The position numbers were made by a program, and so were the translations under genes. 64,000 nt of DNA, from contig NZ_NEJP01000001.1 in assembly GCF_002113125.1 (NCBI RefSeq), positions 124,001 through 188,000 on the forward strand, read 5' to 3'. Source of the stretch: Pseudomonas sp. B20(2017). Lineage in GTDB: Bacteria > Pseudomonadota > Gammaproteobacteria > Pseudomonadales > Pseudomonadaceae. This document shows, piece by piece, positions 1-6,800 of this stretch (within the stretch, counting starts at the first letter, position 1; each line of letters begins with the position of its first letter). A model generated the notes under the pieces. It saw only the letters and a program-made list of their open reading frames with translations, searched no databases and had not been told where the DNA came from.

Positions 1-357
1 ATCAAACCCACACCCAACCCACCCGAAACCGACCCCGCCTCGCCCTACGAATCCGCCGATTCCAGAAAGCTTCACGAAGCCGCCGACCGCGCCCTCGATC
101 ACTATCTCTGCCCGCCCGGCTCCACGCCACCACCGCGCAAAAACCGCAGAATGTATGCCGTCACCGCAGACTTCAAAAACGAAGAGCTGCTGGTCGATGC
201 CTGCGAAACCCTGGCCTCAGCCAGAACCATCGTCAATGACTTCACCCAACTCATGCCCGCCTCGCAGCGCAGAACGCTGGTGGGTATTGCGCAATTGATC
301 ATGCTCGGCGAGCTGGCAGTGAATCGGGTGCTGGATAATCTGGAATTGCCGAATTAA
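1..357 (+). CDS. DUF6124-type protein, copy 1 (5' end cut by window)
   Basis: The reading frame is open from base 1 and lacks only its start codon. Base 1 (ATC) aligns with codon 2 of the complete copy at 3384. 118 residues are visible. The N-terminal half is Pro-rich and polar; the C-terminal half is predicted helical, with the shared block NEELL-DACETLASARTIVND and a hydrophobic helix around LVGIAQLIMLGEL. I recognise it as the Pseudomonas family annotated DUF6124; no function is known to me. It has no signal peptide and no membrane segment. It is nearly identical to the copies at 3384 and 5102, differing mainly at residues 51-54 and the C-terminus. A REP element and a terminator follow. 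Confidence 0.85.
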   Translation: MKPTPNPPETDPASPYESADSRKLHEAADRALDHYLCPPGSTPPPRKNRRMYAVTADFKNEELLVDACETLASARTIVNDFTQLMPASQRRTLVGIAQLIMLGELAVNRVLDNLELPN

Positions 358-379
358 AGCGTCGCCACTGATGCCCTCC

Positions 380-406
380 TGTGGGAGTGAGCTTGCTCAC
401 GAAGGC
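380..406. repeat. REP element (diverged single copy)
   Basis: This is a GTGGGAGTGAGCTTGCTCAC-type palindrome, the Pseudomonas REP core with two symmetric substitutions (GTGAGC/GCTCAC instead of GCGAGC/GCTCGC) that keep the hairpin. It lies just after DUF6124 copy 1. Confidence 0.8.
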
Positions 407-441
407 TGACTTACAGGCAACACATCTTTCCAGACAAAAAG

Positions 442-478
442 AACCGCCGTTCCGAATCAACCGGGACGGCGGTTTTTT
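442..478. terminator. Rho-independent terminator after DUF6124 copy 1
   Basis: The stem AACCGCCGT / ACGGCGGTT is followed by TTTTTT and preceded by an A-rich stretch, so it could work in both directions. A closely similar terminator follows copy 3 at 5608-5648. Confidence 0.85.
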
Positions 479-514
479 CATACAGTACACGACCACTCGT
501 CGCAAAACCGCCGT

Positions 515-536
515 CACCTGTCAGATCTGACAGGTG
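515..536. promoter_or_regulatory. Perfect 22-bp palindrome, probable operator
   Basis: The core CCTGTCAGATCTGACAGG extends by CA/TG to a perfect 22-bp inverted repeat. It ends 63 bases before the GTG start at 600. An imperfect copy (CTGTCAGAACTAACAG) lies at 4691-4706, upstream of the divergent unknown gene at 3909-4577. No repressor is identified. Confidence 0.65.
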
Positions 537-599
537 CGAAATTCATCGTTTAGCACTCTGATAGCTCCTGCCCGTTCCCACCGCGCAGGAGCCTTATCC

Positions 600-2906
600 G
601 TGACCACTTCAACCCCACCGGACAACACCGTTTTCGTTCTCTATCCGCCAATCGTCAATGGCCAGACCACGCCCGTGGAAGGTGCACATATCGGAGTGCC
701 CTTGGTCGCCTATGATCTGGTCACCGATGGTGAAGGTGCAGTCGTTCTCGTCGATCCGCCGTCGACGGGCACCATGGATCCCGGAGACGTCATGGAGCTT
801 TGGCTTGAGGGGGAACCGGCAGCACTGGACAGCGAAACCATTGTCGATCCGAACGCACGCACCACGCTGCGTATTCCCAAGGGTCGACTACATCCGGACC
901 GGGTCAACAAGCTGTACTACACGATCAGGCGTGGAAGCAGCAATTTAGGGACGTCCACGCCCCCGCTCGAAATACTCTATAACCGCATCCGTCCCGGCCT
1001 GAAGGATCGCCTGACCGACCCCGGCGGCCACTCTGAACTCAAGCTCCTTCTGCCTGACGCGATCAAGAACGGCGTCGGCCCGGATTTCGTCAGCGCCGAA
1101 GTGTGTGTGGCCTATCCATATTGCCGGGCGTATGACCTCATTACCCTCAAGTGCAATGGCGAACTGCTGGAGCCCAAGCCCAAGGTCAATCCGAATCAGG
1201 CGCCGCAACCACCGAATCCCGGTGACGAAATCCCCATTACCAGTTGCTTCACCATCACCCGCGCCTTTCTGGACGAGGCGAAACGTCAGGACAAAAAACT
1301 GCATTTTTCCTACACCGTCACCGACCAGATCGGCAACGGCCCGGACACTGATGCACCGTGGTCGCCGGTACAGACGGTGGATGAGGACCTGGATGGCGTT
1401 TTACTTCCAATGCCAATTCTGCTTGAACGTAAAGAGGACTATCCCGGTGATGACGCGAGCATCATTGATCTGGAAAAACTGGCGGGTAATCCATTGCTGC
1501 TGGTCGTGATCACCAAAGACAACCGCTTTGTGGTGGGTGACGAGATTGTGGCGACCTATACCACTACAGGGCAATCCGACCCCGTGGTAGTCCGGGGCAA
1601 AGTCGAAGAGGATCCCTTCATTGGGAAACTGCCCTGTTTCCTTGAAGTGCCCAATGACAAGGTCTTCGCTGGCAGCAAGGTGACTGCGAATTATAAATTG
1701 CACAGGCCCACAGTTGGTTTGGTGGGGATTTCCAACACAGCTACCGCAACGGTGACAGAAACCGCCCCGGTCGATTTGGAGCCGCCAACACTGGTGGCAC
1801 CGGCCGTTGATCCGATTGATGTGCTGGCCTATCCCGACGGGGTGACAGTGCGCATCGAGTATCTTGGCGCACTGGAAGGAGACCGCGCACGACTGGTGGA
1901 AGTCAATCCGCCAGCAGGTTCGCCACAGTTTCCGCTGGTGGAGTTCAACAGCAATAAGCGGGTGAACACGGTGTTGAGCCCGGCGTTTCTCTCCGCGCGG
2001 CATGGAAAAGTGATCGAGTTTCGCTGGAATTTGAATCGCAATGGTGGACAAGCGGGTAAGTCAGATGCGACCAAGGTGACATTGTTGAAGATCGCGGATG
2101 GAGATGCGCGGCTACCCTCGCCAAAAATTCCACAGGCACCGGATGACAAAGTGCTGGATTTGAATTCTTTTCAAGGAAACGCTGAGGTTACCGTGCGGGC
2201 GTGGACAGGCATCAGCACGGATAACATTGTGCAACTAAAACTTTCGGGAAAAGACAATAACAATAACGACCACACAATCCCGATATTGACCAACCACAAA
2301 ATAACCGATCCAGAAATAACCTCTGGAATAAAGGAAACGCTAACTAGAGAACAACTATCATCCCTGAAGCATGACACTGAATTCACAGTATCCTTTGAAG
2401 TATTGCCAGGCGCCACCGACAATTCGACGCCCGTTATTTTTCCGAATTTGACTTTAAAGCTATTGAAAAACACTTTAATGACTTCAGAGGATTTTGAGAC
2501 AGCTAGAGAACAATACATGCAGCCTGGCGATGAAGAGAAGCTCCCCAGCATGACCGTTAAGGTAGTAGCAGGACTTTTACACATCTCTCATCTCTCCACT
2601 CGTTATACCCCTCATATAAGCGGAGTGCATTTATTCACGTACCCCGACACCACTATAAGAATCACACTAAGCCACCCAGCAAAAAGCATTAGATTCGGCA
2701 CTGCCACAAACTTTAACACCCCGTCATCATACAAATGCTATGACGAAAACCTACAACCAATTAAAACTCAGTCCACCCCACCATATGATGAACAAAGACG
2801 AGCATGGGTTAACATTACAGAAACACCAAATAAAGAAATTAAATTTATAGATATAACCATTGGAGCATCCGCCTCGTACTTGGATAACTTCACAATGTTC
2901 CATTGA
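600..2906 (+). CDS. Large protein of unknown function with AT-rich C-terminal module
   Basis: 768 residues from GTG at 600, chosen because GCAGGAG sits 8-9 bases upstream. The longer reading frame from 534 would begin inside the palindrome. There is no signal peptide or membrane segment. Residues 1 to ~540 look like repeated beta-sandwich (Ig-like) modules: each has a polar linker and phrases such as VGDEIVATYTTTG and VFAGSKVTANYKL. The last ~120 residues resemble a jelly-roll module ending in FIDITIG and YLDNFTMF, as in some carbohydrate-binding domains; this is inference. From about 2220 base composition drops sharply in GC while the frame stays open, suggesting a recently acquired 3' segment. 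Function unknown. Confidence 0.75.
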   Translation: MTTSTPPDNTVFVLYPPIVNGQTTPVEGAHIGVPLVAYDLVTDGEGAVVLVDPPSTGTMDPGDVMELWLEGEPAALDSETIVDPNARTTLRIPKGRLHPDRVNKLYYTIRRGSSNLGTSTPPLEILYNRIRPGLKDRLTDPGGHSELKLLLPDAIKNGVGPDFVSAEVCVAYPYCRAYDLITLKCNGELLEPKPKVNPNQAPQPPNPGDEIPITSCFTITRAFLDEAKRQDKKLHFSYTVTDQIGNGPDTDAPWSPVQTVDEDLDGVLLPMPILLERKEDYPGDDASIIDLEKLAGNPLLLVVITKDNRFVVGDEIVATYTTTGQSDPVVVRGKVEEDPFIGKLPCFLEVPNDKVFAGSKVTANYKLHRPTVGLVGISNTATATVTETAPVDLEPPTLVAPAVDPIDVLAYPDGVTVRIEYLGALEGDRARLVEVNPPAGSPQFPLVEFNSNKRVNTVLSPAFLSARHGKVIEFRWNLNRNGGQAGKSDATKVTLLKIADGDARLPSPKIPQAPDDKVLDLNSFQGNAEVTVRAWTGISTDNIVQLKLSGKDNNNNDHTIPILTNHKITDPEITSGIKETLTREQLSSLKHDTEFTVSFEVLPGATDNSTPVIFPNLTLKLLKNTLMTSEDFETAREQYMQPGDEEKLPSMTVKVVAGLLHISHLSTRYTPHISGVHLFTYPDTTIRITLSHPAKSIRFGTATNFNTPSSYKCYDENLQPIKTQSTPPYDEQRRAWVNITETPNKEIKFIDITIGASASYLDNFTMFH

Positions 2907-3383
2907 GCGGCTTCTCCTTTGCAGTCATATCGCTGAGCATTGCGCATGTCGCCATGCTCGGCGTAACGACGAATCCCTAAGGGTCTGATGGGATAGCTCT
3001 CAGAGAGAGTCACGCTATCTTTCACCTATTAAACTCCGGCGTTTAAAAGACACCTCCAGACACGCCTTACAGGCCACGAATCCTTGCGCCATTGCCTACA
3101 GCTACGCCAGAATCCGCCGGCTTGTGCGCCTTGGGGGCGGGTTCTATTGTGGATCGGTCGCTGACGAATCAGCGATCGGGTTTAGCGACTCGAATCATAA
3201 ATAGGTGCACCAGCGCTCGATGCCTTGTCGCAGATTCAATGTCTGCAACTCCGCTATGGTGGCTGTATGCGGGAGACCCTCGGGTCTGCCGGGTGCCTAT
3301 AACCGGTTCGCTAACCCGCGTACAGCCGCCACCTTACTGTTTAGCGACAGTTCCGGGCGGCTCCACTTTATAGGAGCTTCACC
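2907..3383. other. 477-base gene-free region before DUF6124 copy 2
   Basis: The first ~115 bases show nothing I can name. The remainder (from about 3035) is the repeated structured leader described separately. No convincing coding frame was seen in either strand. Confidence 0.6.
3035..3383 (+). ncRNA. Repeated structured leader, copy A
   Basis: Starting at GGCGTTTAAAAGACACCTC the region matches 4752-5101 closely. Visible structures: a 10-bp stem with CGAA loop (CGGTCGCTGA / TCAGCGATCG, 3155-3178); a long stem (arms 3258-3273 and 3315-3333) enclosing AGACC-CTCG-GGTCT (3274-3287); and ACTGT-ttagcg-ACAGT (about 3337-3351). TTTAGCGAC at 3181-3189 could pair with the first stem's left arm instead, so alternative folds are possible. 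A ribosome site GGAGCTTCACC follows, then the ATG of copy 2. Differences from copy B tend to preserve pairing. I do not know an Rfam name for it. Confidence 0.6.
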
Positions 3384-3758
3384 ATGATCAAACCAACACC
3401 CAACCCGCCCGAAACCGATCCCGCCTCGCCCTACGAATCCGCCGATTCCAGAAAGCTTCACGAAGCCGCCGACCGCGCCCTCGATCACTATCTCTGCCCG
3501 CCCGGCTCCACGCCACCACCGCGCAAGGCCCGCAAAATATACGCCGTCACCGCAGACTTCAAAAACGAAGAGCTGCTGGCCGATGCCTGCGAAACCCTGG
3601 CTTCAGCCAGAACCATCGTCAATGACTTCACCCACCTCATGCCCGCCTCGCAGCGCAGAACGCTGGTGGGGATTGCGCAACTGATCATGCTCGGCGAGCT
3701 GGCAGTGAATCGGGTGCTGGATAATCTGGAGATACCACCGTCGCCGAACCCCGTGTAA
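3384..3758 (+). CDS. DUF6124-type protein, copy 2 (complete)
   Basis: 124 residues from ATG at 3384, with GGAG 8 bases upstream. The N-terminal half is Pro/Asp-rich (PNPPETDPASPYESAD) and carries a short helix (KLHEAADRALDHYL). The C-terminal half carries the helical NEELLADACETLASA block and an LVGIAQLIMLGELAVNRVLDNLE helix. It is predicted cytoplasmic and soluble. It is the only copy in the window with both an intact start and a fully visible leader. It converges with the minus-strand gene ending at 3909. Family assignment DUF6124 is from recognition; molecular role unknown. Confidence 0.85.
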   Translation: MIKPTPNPPETDPASPYESADSRKLHEAADRALDHYLCPPGSTPPPRKARKIYAVTADFKNEELLADACETLASARTIVNDFTHLMPASQRRTLVGIAQLIMLGELAVNRVLDNLEIPPSPNPV

Positions 3759-3843
3759 AGGCTTGAGAGATACGGCGGCTACCGCAAGAAGCCTTCCAAC
3801 GTTTGCCAAGGCGTGAAACGGAAGCGGTGATGAATGCACAAAT

Positions 3844-3871
3844 GGGCGGCACGCACGTCGTGCGTCCGCCC
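3844..3871. terminator. GC-rich hairpin between convergent genes
   Basis: The inverted repeat GGGCGGCACGCAC / GTGCGTCCGCCC has a near-perfect 12-13-bp stem. It lies between the convergent ends of DUF6124 copy 2 and the gene at 3909. There is no T tract, so intrinsic termination is uncertain. Confidence 0.4.
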
Positions 3872-3908
3872 CTATTCAGCAATGCTCACTGAGGTGGAGC
3901 CTCGACAG

Positions 3909-4577
3909 TCAACTGGCTACCAGAATGTGCGCCGCAGTGATCGGACCGAAAGAGAGGGCTGGATTATCCAGATAGCGCGTGCCTCTGAACACGTTGTTAC
4001 CGCCGACATCGACAAAGTCCTCCTGCGTATACATCAGCACCACCATGGTGACAGGCGCGACGCCAGCGGAGTCCACATGACCTTCCATCAGATTCAGAGC
4101 CCATTCGAAACTTATGAATGGCAGGTCGCCGATTTCGATCGGAGGAGCCCCCGCATCCAGCCGAAAGTATTGCCGTATCGTGATGCGCAATTGGTTGCCA
4201 ACCACCGTGAACGAGGGTTTTCCATATCGCCGCTCTATGGGCCCGCCATCACTCGCCCACTGGTCCATGTAATAACCAGGGTCGGAGAATAGAGCGAACA
4301 ACGACGGGTTATTGCTGATATTACCGGCCGCATCAAAGAAGTAGTTGTAGGAGTAGTGATACGCAAGCCCGGTCAGTTCAGGCCGGATCGCATTGATGGG
4401 ATTATCCAGATAATTGGCAATGAACTGATTGGCCATGACCCGAAAGTTGAGAAAGTCCAGCTTCAGGTCGAACGTCACCTCATAGAAGATGGCCCGCTCT
4501 CCTGCGTCCCTTTCCAGCTTCCCTGAAACGAACTCCATCTCCATGCCCGGCAGTTTTCGGTAAACGCGCCTTGTCAT
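3909..4577 (-). CDS. Unknown 222-residue protein
   Basis: It starts at ATG 4577 and ends at TGA 3909. No signal peptide or membrane helix. It is rich in aromatic residues (YHYSYNYFFD, RYGKPSF, IRQYFRLDAG), with alternating hydrophobic strands suggesting a beta-rich soluble fold. I do not recognise the family. The gene runs opposite to its neighbours and sits alone between two DUF6124 copies. An imperfect copy of the 515-536 palindrome lies ~114 bases upstream of its start (4691-4706), which suggests co-regulation with the large gene at 600. The sequence is an intact open frame with normal Pseudomonas codon use. Confidence 0.7.
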   Translation of the reverse strand: MTRRVYRKLPGMEMEFVSGKLERDAGERAIFYEVTFDLKLDFLNFRVMANQFIANYLDNPINAIRPELTGLAYHYSYNYFFDAAGNISNNPSLFALFSDPGYYMDQWASDGGPIERRYGKPSFTVVGNQLRITIRQYFRLDAGAPPIEIGDLPFISFEWALNLMEGHVDSAGVAPVTMVVLMYTQEDFVDVGGNNVFRGTRYLDNPALSFGPITAAHILVAS

Positions 4578-4690
4578 GATCTACCCCGGATTTCCAATGA
4601 GTGAGTTATCAGCCGCTGCGTTCGCAGAGTGCGAAGAGGCAGCGGCGCGAATTCCGGGTTTATAGGGCGCCTGGGAACAACACGCGTCTA

Positions 4691-4706
4691 CTGTCAGAAC
4701 TAACAG
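4691..4706. promoter_or_regulatory. Imperfect copy of the CTGTCAG palindrome
   Basis: CTGTCAGAACTAACAG differs at two positions from the perfect 16-bp core of the palindrome at 515-536. It lies ~114 bases upstream of the ATG at 4577. Confidence 0.5.
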
Positions 4707-4751
4707 GTCGCGGGACATTTCAGACCGACGGCACCCGTGACTTTTAAATTC

Positions 4752-5101
4752 TGGCGTTTAAAAGACACCTCAAGACACGCCTTCGAGGCTACGAATTCTT
4801 GCGCCGTTACCTACAGCTACGCCAGAATCCGCCGGCTTGTGCGCTTTGGGGTCGGGTTTTATTGTGGATCGGTCGCTGACGAATCAGCGATCGGGTTTAG
4901 CGACTCGGACTTTCTCAGCGCATCAGCGTTCATGGCTTCGTTGTGGGAATCTTCGTCCGCAATTACGTTATGGCGGCTGTATGCGGGAGACCTTCGGGTC
5001 TACCGGGGTGCCTGAGACCGGTTCGCTAACCTGCGTACAGCTGCCACCTTCACCTGTTTAGCGACAGGGAAAGAGTGGCTCCATAACTCAGGAGCTTCAC
5101 C
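4752..5101 (+). ncRNA. Repeated structured leader, copy B
   Basis: Second copy of the leader at 3035-3383. The same elements are present: CGGTCGCTGA-CGAA-TCAGCGATCG (4870-4893); a long stem (arms 4971-4987 and 5030-5046) enclosing AGACC-TTCG-GGTCT (4988-5001), a UUCG-type tetraloop; and CCTGT-ttagcg-ACAGG (5053-5068). The outer pair of the last stem is A-T in copy A and C-G here, a compensatory change. The region between 4905 and 4965 is unlike copy A. The ribosome site GGAGCTTCACC is conserved although the next codon is ATA. Confidence 0.6.
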
Positions 5102-5476
5102 ATAATCAAACCCACACACAATCCACCCGAAACCGACCCCGCCTCGCCCTACGAATCCGCCGATTCCAGAAAGCTTCACGAAGCCGCCGACCGCACCCTC
5201 GATCACTATCTCTGCCCGCCCGGCTCCACGCCACCACCGCGCAGAGGCCGCAAAATGTACGCCGTCACCGCGGACTTCAAAAACGAAGAGCTGCTGGCTG
5301 ATGCCTGCGAAACCCTGGCATCAGCCAGAACCATCGTCAATGACTTCACCCACCTCATGCCCGCCTCGCAGCGCAGGACGCTGGTGGGTATTGCGCAACT
5401 GATCATGCTCGGGGAGCTGGCACTGAATCGGGTGCTGGATAATCTGGAAATACCGTCGTCGCAGACTTCAGCGTAA
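5102..5476 (+). pseudogene. DUF6124-type protein, copy 3, start codon ATA
   Basis: The frame is open for 124 codons and aligns end to end with copy 2, but the codon after the ribosome site is ATA, not ATG. The next ATG (5255) is 51 codons in, has no ribosome site and would remove the Pro-rich half. Either ATA is used inefficiently, or a 74-residue fragment is made, or the copy is silent. The coding sequence shows no stop or frameshift and almost no other decay, so loss of the start is recent if real. A REP pair and a terminator follow. Confidence 0.7.
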
Positions 5477-5507
5477 AGGCTTGAGAGATGTGTCGTGGCC
5501 GCTGACT

Positions 5508-5577
5508 CCTTCGCGAGCAAGCTCGCTCCCACAGTTGACCGCATTCCATTGTGGGAGCGAGCTTGCTCGCGAAGGCG
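5508..5577. repeat. Inverted pair of REP elements (REPIN)
   Basis: CCTTCGCGAGCAAGCTCGC (5508-5534) and GTGGGAGCGAGCTTGCTCGC (5550-5577) are the two halves of a REP doublet, head to head with a 15-base spacer. Confidence 0.9.
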
Positions 5578-5607
5578 GCCTCACAGCCAACACAGTTCAT
5601 CGGGTAT

Positions 5608-5648
5608 GAAAAAACCGCCATCAGGTTCAACCGGAAGGCGGTTTTTTC
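5608..5648. terminator. Bidirectional terminator between DUF6124 copy 3 and flhB
   Basis: GAAAAAACCGCC ... GGCGGTTTTTTC gives T tracts on both strands. It can end the plus-strand DUF6124 transcript and the minus-strand flhB operon, whose stop is at 5661. Confidence 0.9.
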
Positions 5649-5660
5649 ATCACCACAAAG

Positions 5661-6800
5661 TCAAGAATCGCGCCGCAGATCCGGCGGGATCGGCAAGTCA
5701 TCACTGAGCGGATCGGGGCGCTTGCCCTTGCCGGCCTGATGTTGGCGGATCTGGTAGACGTAGGCCAATACCTGAGCGACCGCCAGGTACAGGCCGCCGG
5801 GGATTTCTTCTTCCAGCTCCGTGGAGTAATAGATCGAACGCGCCAGCGCTGGCGACTCGAGGAGCATGACGTTGTTGGCCACGGCGATTTCGCGGATCTT
5901 CAGCGCCAGGAAGTCGCTACCCTTGGCCAGCAGCATCGGCGCCCCGCCCTTCTCGGCGTCGTACTTGAGTGCCACGGCGTAGTGGGTCGGGTTGGTGATG
6001 ACCACGTCGGCATCCGGGATCGCCGCCATCATCCGCCGCTGCGACATCTCGCGCTGGACCTGGCGAATCCGTTGCTTGACCTCCGGCCGACCTTCCTGGT
6101 CCTTGTGCTCGTCGCGCACTTCCTGCTTGGTCATCTTGAGCTTCTTGATGCTCTCCCAGATCTGCACGGGCACGTCGACGGCGGCGATGATGATCAAACC
6201 GCACGCCAGCCACAGAGAGCTCCAGCCCACCAGTTGCAAGCTGTGAATGATCGCCCGGTCCAGCGGCTCGTGGGCGATGCGCAGCAGGTCGTCGATGTCC
6301 GAATTGAGCACCACCAGCGCCACACCCAGCGTGATGAGAAACTTGGCCAGCGCCTTGAGCAGCTCGACCACGGCCTTCATCGAAAACATCCGCTTGAGGC
6401 CCGCCGCCGGGTTCATCCGGCTGAACTTGGGTGCCAGCGAACCGGCGGCGAACAGCCAGCCACCCAGCGCAATCGGCCCGAGGAAAGCGGCCAGCAACAG
6501 GGTGATCATGATCGGCTGAATCGCCAGCAATGCCTGCAATCCGGAACTCATCAGGAACGTCGCCATGGAGCGCTCGTCCATGATCACCTCCCGCGACAGC
6601 GTGAAGTTCTGGCGCATCAGATCCATCAGTTCTTCTGCGAGCATGCCGCCAAAAATCAGCAGCGCGGCAGAGCCGGCGAGCATGATTGCCAGCGTGTTGA
6701 GCTCCTTGGAGCGCGCAATCTCACCCTTTTCCCGGGAGTCCTTCTTGCGTTTCTCCGTGGGGTCTTCTGTTTTGTCCTGACCACTTTCGCTCTCAGCCAT
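5661..6800 (-). CDS. flhB: Flagellar export switch protein FlhB
   Basis: 379 residues. Inner-membrane component of the flagellar type III export gate that switches export specificity from rod/hook to filament substrates. The polar N-terminus (TEDPTEKRKKDSREKGEIARS) is typical. Four membrane segments lie roughly at residues 37-57, 90-115, 145-170 and 190-215. The cytoplasmic domain contains the autocleavage motif NPTH at 270-273. It is the last gene of the fliLMNOPQR-flhB run, 3 bases after fliR. Length fits the family. Confidence 0.98.
   Translation of the reverse strand: MAESESGQDKTEDPTEKRKKDSREKGEIARSKELNTLAIMLAGSAALLIFGGMLAEELMDLMRQNFTLSREVIMDERSMATFLMSSGLQALLAIQPIMITLLLAAFLGPIALGGWLFAAGSLAPKFSRMNPAAGLKRMFSMKAVVELLKALAKFLITLGVALVVLNSDIDDLLRIAHEPLDRAIIHSLQLVGWSSLWLACGLIIIAAVDVPVQIWESIKKLKMTKQEVRDEHKDQEGRPEVKQRIRQVQREMSQRRMMAAIPDADVVITNPTHYAVALKYDAEKGGAPMLLAKGSDFLALKIREIAVANNVMLLESPALARSIYYSTELEEEIPGGLYLAVAQVLAYVYQIRQHQAGKGKRPDPLSDDLPIPPDLRRDS

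Follow-up and report, generated by a model that had tools for sequence, protein, structure and literature searches.

C4 is a classic phage antisense RNA, an immunity device of phage P1 that acts on two sites of its transcript, and in P1 icd and ant are kept off by default. The CI RNA of satellite phage P4 is likewise a small immunity RNA, which acts on its own leader transcript by transcription termination. The P1 record annotates a1, b1, C4, a2, b2, and icd in the same order as the units described here; icd, the first gene under C4, starts 47 nt past it and is annotated as a cell-division inhibitor. In the accessible portions of the literature, P1 C4 is described as conferring immunity (PMC12197685, PMC5320573), cleavage of the P1 and P7 C4 by RNase P is credited to Hartmann 1995 (via PMC5320573), and C4 and c4-a1b1 are tabulated for Proteobacteria and phages (PMC2864571). 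PMC5320573 recounts that Pseudomonadales were among the groups for which the latter work predicted C4, and C4 was therefore already known from this order. In the same portions, 21 C4-derived RNAs are reported for Acinetobacter baumannii AB5075, which the authors claim as the first large group of the kind and whose read coverage begins at a GGW motif given as the phage C4 RNase P site (PMC5320573).

We describe here two leaders, copies A and B, that precede DUF6124 genes in a 64,000-nucleotide stretch of Pseudomonas DNA (the window). We propose, with a probability of roughly 0.8, that each is a C4-type antisense unit in which C4 pairs with two downstream sites, a2 and b2, and likely blocks translation of the DUF6124 gene. 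Transcription would begin at a conserved predicted promoter adjoining the a1b1 element, near position 3157 in copy A, and RNase P would excise the C4 RNA from the transcript, the cleavage reported in P1. Loops a' and b' of C4 would then pair with a2 and b2, with b2 covering the ribosome site, and translation of the gene behind C4 would be silenced, while a1 and b1 could act as a decoy, or as an early target, and so adjust the release of C4. With RNA and gene on one transcript, the unit would hold itself off and yield a pulse only when C4 is scarce, for example when the DNA has just entered another cell or when processing has failed. Sequence gives this mechanism good support; silencing in cells, processing, and biological purpose we infer.

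C4 and c4-a1b1 elements in the leaders

The original prediction described a conserved structured leader and considered a regulatory RNA likely, and the comparison with Rfam that it suggested settles the identity as C4 plus c4-a1b1. The C4 antisense RNA family (RF01695, cut-off 45) is matched in both leaders, with 80 bits in copy A and 73.4 in copy B, and c4-a1b1 (RF03163, cut-off 46.7) is matched upstream of each C4, with 49.6 and 47.1 bits respectively; these four, two per copy, are all of the above-cut-off Rfam matches in the 64-kb window. Structure and covariation are borne out, but the leader is, by these matches, a member of a known family and not a new structured-leader class. Both of the copies originally described are present, and a third C4, that of unit 1, lies just left of the window. 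The features of the three units, in window coordinates unless stated otherwise, are these:

1-357, + strand: DUF6124 gene of unit 1 (PF19619, 62.1 bits), with start codon and C4 left of the window
Contig 123864-123949 (the window begins at contig 124001): C4 of unit 1, from the genome search with the C4 model
3108-3123, + strand: conserved upstream DNA block CAGAATCCGCCGGCTT of copy A, a possible operator or promoter part
3122-3150, + strand: predicted promoter of copy A, TTGTGC-17-TATTGT, conserved in position
3144-3196, + strand: c4-a1b1 element of copy A (RF03163, 49.6 bits), the first hairpin of the original prediction
3182-3188, + strand: site a1 of copy A, TTAGCGA, a 7-nt complement of loop a'
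3201-3208, + strand: site b1 of copy A, ATAGGTGC, assigned by position and homologous to b1 of unit 1 (row L009)
3252-3336, + strand: C4 antisense RNA of copy A (RF01695, 80 bits)
3292-3302, + strand: loop b' of copy A, GGTGCCTATAA
3308-3314, + strand: loop a' of copy A, TCGCTAA
3336-3351, + strand: a2 hairpin of copy A, ACTGTTTAGCGACAGT, with site a2 TTAGCGA at 3341-3347
3368-3374, + strand: site b2 of copy A, TTATAGG, overlapping the Shine-Dalgarno AGGAG at 3372-3376
3384-3758, + strand: DUF6124 gene of copy A, 124 aa, ATG at 3384 (PF19619, 61.8 bits, cut-off 27)
4823-4838, + strand: conserved upstream DNA block of copy B
4837-4865, + strand: predicted promoter of copy B, TTGTGC-17-TATTGT, conserved in position
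4859-4911, + strand: c4-a1b1 element of copy B (RF03163, 47.1 bits)
4897-4903 and 4913-4918, + strand: site a1 and b1 core TCTCAG of copy B, the latter directly past the c4-a1b1 element
4966-5051, + strand: C4 antisense RNA of copy B (RF01695, 73.4 bits)
5007-5017 and 5023-5029, + strand: loop b' GGTGCCTGAGA and loop a' TCGCTAA of copy B
5053-5068, + strand: a2 hairpin of copy B, with site a2 at 5058-5064
5087-5092, + strand: site b2 of copy B, CTCAGG, overlapping the Shine-Dalgarno at 5090-5094
5102-5476, + strand: DUF6124 frame of copy B (PF19619, 59.7 bits for 5105-5473), with ATA at the usual start, 5102-5104

The pairing of the copy A b1 ATAGGTGC with loop b' is partly G-U, and the best-scoring run picked by the script is a different stretch, GCGCTCG. 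Copy B retains an intact leader, C4, and sites despite the ATA at its DUF6124 start, a position at which six of six relatives compared (L043-L047 and L050) have ATG, and its DUF6124 gene may be silent while C4 is still made. The frames between the tandem units, at 534-2906 (+, 790 aa) and 3909-4577 (-, 222 aa), have no match in Pfam, NCBIfam, or PADLOC, and a region at 5661-6800 is flhB-like, a name given by eye from the translation.

Copy A folds into three stems: one of 10 bp with a CGAA cap, a long one enclosing a CUCG hairpin, and a short one ahead of the ribosome site. The three stems noted at the outset are real; they are the hairpin of a1b1, the body of C4, and the hairpin of a2. Both leaders are more stable than their shuffles (z-scores of -5.19 for copy A and -5.68 for copy B, with 0 of 200 shuffles as stable in either case). 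In the minimum-energy fold of copy B the a1/b1 region is paired with the C4 loops and replaces the full C4 stem, which counts against the antisense reading. The outer pair of the last stem does change from A-T to C-G, the short stem being ACTGTTTAGCGACAGT in copy A and CCTGTTTAGCGACAGG in copy B; the changes from T-G to C-G and from G-C to G-T in the long stem are also present, but they are one-sided. Alternative folds had been anticipated, and minimum-energy folding does predict pairing between loop a' and the a1 region for 19 of 33 units, a count made without a shuffled control. The recurring TTTAGCGAC does hold the targets a1 and a2, but GTCGCTGA, proposed to pair with it, is not the conserved partner, which in every unit is loop a' of C4 (TCGCTAA in copies A and B). 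The TTTAGCGAC-GTCGCTGA contact itself was rejected, as it reaches six or more pairs in five of the 29 units where the strand was found, all of the TCGCTAA class.

A covariation test had also been suggested and, run on 33 paralogous C4 of this one genome, it was passed. In the alignment 97.1% of the cells in the C4 body are paired, and with partners slid by one to three columns 31-42% of cells pair. Both sides have changed in 16 of the 27 pairs, giving 99 such cells versus a shuffle mean of 27.6, a value that 0 of 500 shuffles reach, so the three stems carry compensatory changes. Two G residues at the foot of the C4 stem are invariant in all 33 units. This covariation, together with the stability of the leader folds, backs the view that a regulatory RNA is likely.

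The leader had been drawn from position 3035, but 3035-3156 is probably promoter or upstream DNA and the RNA likely starts near 3157. We consider that this segment probably holds DNA signals rather than RNA because the conserved promoter and upstream block are placed there: in 22 of the 33 units a TTGNNN-17-TANNNT motif stops 6-7 nt short of the hairpin strand, and CAGAATCCGCCGGCTT precedes the motif in 20 of 33, both counts being without a shuffled control. We place the promoter next to a1b1 by its conserved position. A generic promoter scan found one site versus 3.3 expected by shuffling, and the conserved promoter, being below threshold, is missing from its list, a further point against our reading. 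The CAGAATCCGCCGGCTT block (3108-3123 and 4823-4838) might be an operator through which one regulator acts on all of the units.

These structures could be viewed as a leader that acts in cis, riboswitch-like or protein-sensing, through alternative folds and with no antisense RNA released. The stable folds of both leaders would fit such a model, as would the predicted a'-a1 region pairing in 19 of 33 units and the observation that in 32 of 33 the local fold pairs half or more of the Shine-Dalgarno region (counted without a shuffled control). However, the leaders score above cut-off as C4 and c4-a1b1, and loop b' is the least conserved part of C4 (mean identity 0.31, as against 0.50 for the a' region, 0.76 for the P1 stem, and 0.86 for the P3 stem) and varies with the downstream sites, whereas a ligand pocket would be conserved. 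Because of the Rfam matches and the joint variation of loops and sites we regard a cis-acting leader as very unlikely, and it is not our main reading.

Matching of C4 loops to their own sites

In the 33 units of this genome, loop a' matches a1 and a2, and loop b' matches b1 and b2, with a1 and b1 upstream of C4, a2 and b2 downstream, and b2 at the ribosome site of the following gene in 25 of 33, both window copies included. The same script applied to P1 as a control recovers matches to loop a' of 7 nt for a1 and a2, and matches to loop b' of 7 nt for b1 and 8 nt for b2. Mean best-run scores are higher for cognate than for non-cognate combinations at a'-a1 (18.30 versus 13.67), a'-a2 (17.73 versus 11.57), b'-b1 (17.88 versus 15.08), and b'-b2 (20.36 versus 13.45), with 0 of 100,000 permutations each, the permutations preserving the column make-up but not the kinship of units. 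Runs of seven or more at a2 and b2 jointly occur in 27 of 33 cognate versus 54 of 1,056 non-cognate combinations. Single short runs say little, a run of six being present in 73% of non-cognate pairs at b2 and 90% at b1. In a first and broader test by duplex energy, b' with the upstream region was not significant (1,115 of 20,000 permutations), while the other three combinations gave 0, 0, and 1 of 20,000; the broad-window energies were diluted by stems, and the loops and sites were then defined more narrowly. We note that the weak single short matches and this first result for b' count against the proposed antisense pairing.

The geometry of the units is also regular. The start codon lies 46-56 nt past C4 in 32 of 33 units; the DUF3077 gene of the exception, L004, starts 114 nt past C4, with a short frame in between. 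A recognisable Shine-Dalgarno lies under the b2 match in 25 of 33 units (with the L004 start entered one base off in this count); no such overlap was found in the other eight, and L021 has its best b2 match within the gene itself, observations that speak against the translation block. An alternative is that C4 mainly ends transcription early by pairing with a1/b1 or a2, in the manner of P4 CI, and that the block of translation is secondary. The retention of a1 and b1 and their covariation with the loops are consistent with this, as is the predicted cis pairing in 19 of 33 units, but the overlap of b2 with the Shine-Dalgarno in 25 of 33, as in P1, points to the ribosome site, and a terminator scan of window 1-6000 lists no + strand site between C4 and the gene. 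We therefore view early termination as rather unlikely to be the principal mode of action.

The loops differ from unit to unit: all 33 b' loops are different, and the a' loops are of 19 kinds, the commonest of which occur six and five times. Twenty-one pairs of units encode proteins that are at least 85% identical; seven of these pairs have a' in common and none has b'; L002 and L008, with 99% protein identity, are alike at four of 11 b' positions, and L013 and L020, with 97%, at one of 11. At the left edge of the window, the three tandem units have the same a' and the b' cores CCTTTGA, CCTATAA, and CCTGAGA, and their ribosome sites are, in matching order, TCAAAGGAG, TTATAGGAG, and CTCAGGAG. 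The b' loop of unit 1 is unchanged in L043, L045, and L047, and that of copy B in L044 and L050, and six of nine relatives compared have a unit with an unchanged unit 1 or copy B b' within about 2.5 kb of the flhB-like region. The genome is assigned to Pseudomonas by its relatives, with 98% protein identity to a P. koreensis DUF6124 and 92% DNA identity over the flhB side. When a2 and b2 scores are summed, the own target is the best or joint-best for 30 of 33 C4 RNAs; it ranks third for L016 (copy B of the window) and second for L025 and L032, and these three weigh against the antisense reading.

Since no two of the 33 units have the same b' loop, and each loop is matched to the ribosome site of its own unit, we predict that the units are mostly insulated from each other, with some cross-talk inside the classes that share a' (such as CTACCAA and TCGCTAA). 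One interpretation, to which we give even odds, is a chromosomal lock-and-key repertoire of dozens of self-silencing C4 units per Pseudomonas genome, in which each copy has been re-keyed at b' and its own ribosome site and DUF6124 paralogues that are almost identical can be switched one by one. With a different recognition loop in each of 33 units, a phage immunity switch has probably become a large, separately keyed chromosomal set.

Genes behind C4 and distribution of the units

The genome (6.14 Mb in 33 contigs) has 34 C4 matches, 33 of them above the covariance-model cut-off; the 34th (43.5 bits, below cut-off, and with no clear gene) is excluded from all counts of 33. This match, L034, at 130588-130665 of contig C29, is degenerate and lies by a masked stretch about 1 kb from L023. 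Eight of 31 c4-a1b1 matches genome-wide are at or over the curated cut-off of 46.7. The genes behind the 33 C4 encode DUF6124 (26), DUF3077 (two), Bro-N (one), and short proteins (four: L017, L028, L032, and L033) with no Pfam match above cut-off. Viewed from the genes, 27 of the 30 DUF6124 genes have C4 less than 700 bases upstream, two of them sharing one C4, as do two of the three DUF3077 genes.

The sole over-cut-off C4 unit before Bro-N is L024 on contig C5 (3.6e-11), whose neighbors are EamA, RNase_T, and DUF2076 genes and are not prophage-like. A second Bro-N gene (7e-09; L186 761-1406, contig C8) is preceded by a divergent C4-like element that is weak, at 27.8 bits with a custom model and filters off. 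The Bro-N units may connect the ant-type target of phages with the units that carry DUF6124. L183 on contig C33 is a DUF6124 gene (start at locus 666) with an a1b1 hairpin, and no C4 was found there; silencing of this gene in trans was considered but is not supported, the best C4 of the genome scoring 29 versus 33-46 for cognates. In the protein of L185 on contig C15, which has no C4, a single stretch matches both DUF6124 (66.5 bits) and DUF3077 (26.6 bits), no more than a hint of kinship between the two families. Upstream of L185 on the opposite strand is a frame that reads, by eye, as an HTH repressor-like protein. Profile comparison of DUF6124 with the other short proteins gave no significant kinship.

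At least 4,093 relatives of DUF6124 reach an E of 0.01 or less, whereas searches of PHROGs, PADLOC, NCBIfam, and solved structures gave no match. A first structure model was poor (pLDDT 63.7); a second is mostly helical with three helices (mean pLDDT 73.8, pTM 0.47, confident for the pair 61-114 only), and in a fold search no solved or viral structure matched it at an E of 0.001 or less. A literature search on DUF6124 found no paper, and for DUF3077 the available part of one report lists a one-base insertion in a DUF3077 pseudogene among the mutations of furfural-tolerant evolved P. putida (PMC9630843). Since DUF6124 stands where icd stands in P1, a growth or prophage regulator is, by analogy, the first candidate role. 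A more specific proposal, which concerns purpose and is compatible with the antisense mechanism, is that the units are type I toxin-antitoxin-like addiction modules, with C4 as the RNA antitoxin and DUF6124 as a growth inhibitor. The high copy number with one distinct b' per copy and the annotation of icd as a cell-division inhibitor are in keeping with this, but the mostly helical prediction for DUF6124 comes with no significant match by fold or in the databases searched, and copy B is kept although it has ATA at the usual start. We regard addiction as unlikely.

Units of this kind are widespread in Pseudomonas. C4 is matched in 137 of 149 genomes sampled from the genus (none in 12, and many with 27 or more), in 66 of 99 sampled from the family, and in seven of 184 sampled from the class, where no genome outside the family has more than three. 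Eight named genomes, chosen for holding DUF6124, have 18-41 matches each at an E of 0.001 or less (Pseudomonas sp. DTU12.3, 26; P. fluorescens PfAR1, 18; P. viridiflava p11.F9, 41; P. chlororaphis EA105, 41; P. koreensis DSM 16610, 28; P. koreensis B1M1-15, 31; Pseudomonas sp. TH43, 27; and P. fluorescens 28B5, 37). In the named genomes C4 lies 35-75 nt before the gene at 79 of 79 DUF6124 loci, which were drawn from the best 80 of 566 relatives and hence are close ones, and the loop-site test on 89 distinct units is significant at all four sites (0 of 20,000 permutations each).

Among viral sequences, 34 C4 were found in 37 sources (32 DUF6124 viral contigs, four Pseudomonas phage records, and P1), and 35 in 28 viral contigs chosen by an exact C4 pattern. 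In 28 of the 32 DUF6124 viral contigs C4 is 35-75 nt before the gene, and in four it is absent there; other viral units precede a 52-aa protein (ten distinct units), DUF3077-like proteins, or short proteins, as named by eye. The 52-aa (MTALIPSKIR...-type) prophage units are L039, L158, L160, L164, L165, L168, L171, L172, L174, and L177, and the one member scanned has no PHROGs match. The chromosomal C4 set could be imagined to act in trans on incoming phages and prophages as an RNA immunity library, in line with the many different loops per genome and with the immunity attributed to P1 C4 in the accessible portions of PMC12197685 and PMC5320573. Some C4 of this genome do fit viral-contig DUF6124 and DUF3077 units as well as the contig's own C4, or nearly so (for example L008, 42 v 42; L014, 43 v 44; L004, 40 v 40), and such units may be cross-silenced. 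However, the well-matched contigs carry chromosome-type units, such that the fit may be plain homology and some may perhaps be host flanks; for the ten 52-aa prophage units the best genome C4 scores 33-39 versus 38-51 for the phage's own and is lower in each; and every unit has a target of its own in cis. A role as an immunity library is thus highly improbable, and we favor self-silencing in cis.

Relation to known C4 systems

The Pseudomonas units resemble P1 c4-icd-ant in having a three-stem RNA with loops a' and b', a1 and b1 upstream, a2 and b2 downstream, and b2 at the ribosome site. They differ in that P1 has one copy, whereas here there are tens of chromosomal copies, each differently keyed, and in that the products are icd and ant in P1 but DUF6124, DUF3077, Bro-N, and short proteins here; P1 immI-type control of icd and an antirepressor was not found in the window, where the genes are DUF6124. 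IsrK of the Salmonella prophage Gifsy-1 (RF01394) is weakly similar over the a1b1 element and may be kin to it, but the two matches, 27.6 bits at window 3157-3228 and 26.9 bits at 4872-4933, are far below the cut-off of 50, and the leaders are not members of that family.

The Acinetobacter Group 1 C4-derived sRNAs too form a large family in one genome, with variable target loops and reported processing at a GGW motif. In the accessible portions of that account their targets are unknown and no cis target gene is described (PMC5320573), whereas each Pseudomonas unit has matching sites and a gene. In the literature searched we found no account of the Pseudomonas units, of DUF6124 targets, or of loop-site covariation. 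What is new relative to known C4, as judged from these comparisons, is the scale and individual keying of a chromosomal set with defined cis targets.

If the lock-and-key reading holds, these units would rank among the largest collections of mutually insulated antisense RNA switches in a single bacterium. They offer, within one cell, 33 natural antisense switches with predicted cognates, in which orthogonality, re-keying after duplication, and cross-talk become directly measurable. They also give a first handle on the DUF6124 and DUF3077 families, whose products are likely off by default, by analogy with P1 icd and ant. The large bacterial C4 set described previously, that of Acinetobacter, has targets given as unknown in the available text (PMC5320573); in Pseudomonas the putative targets can be read beside each RNA.
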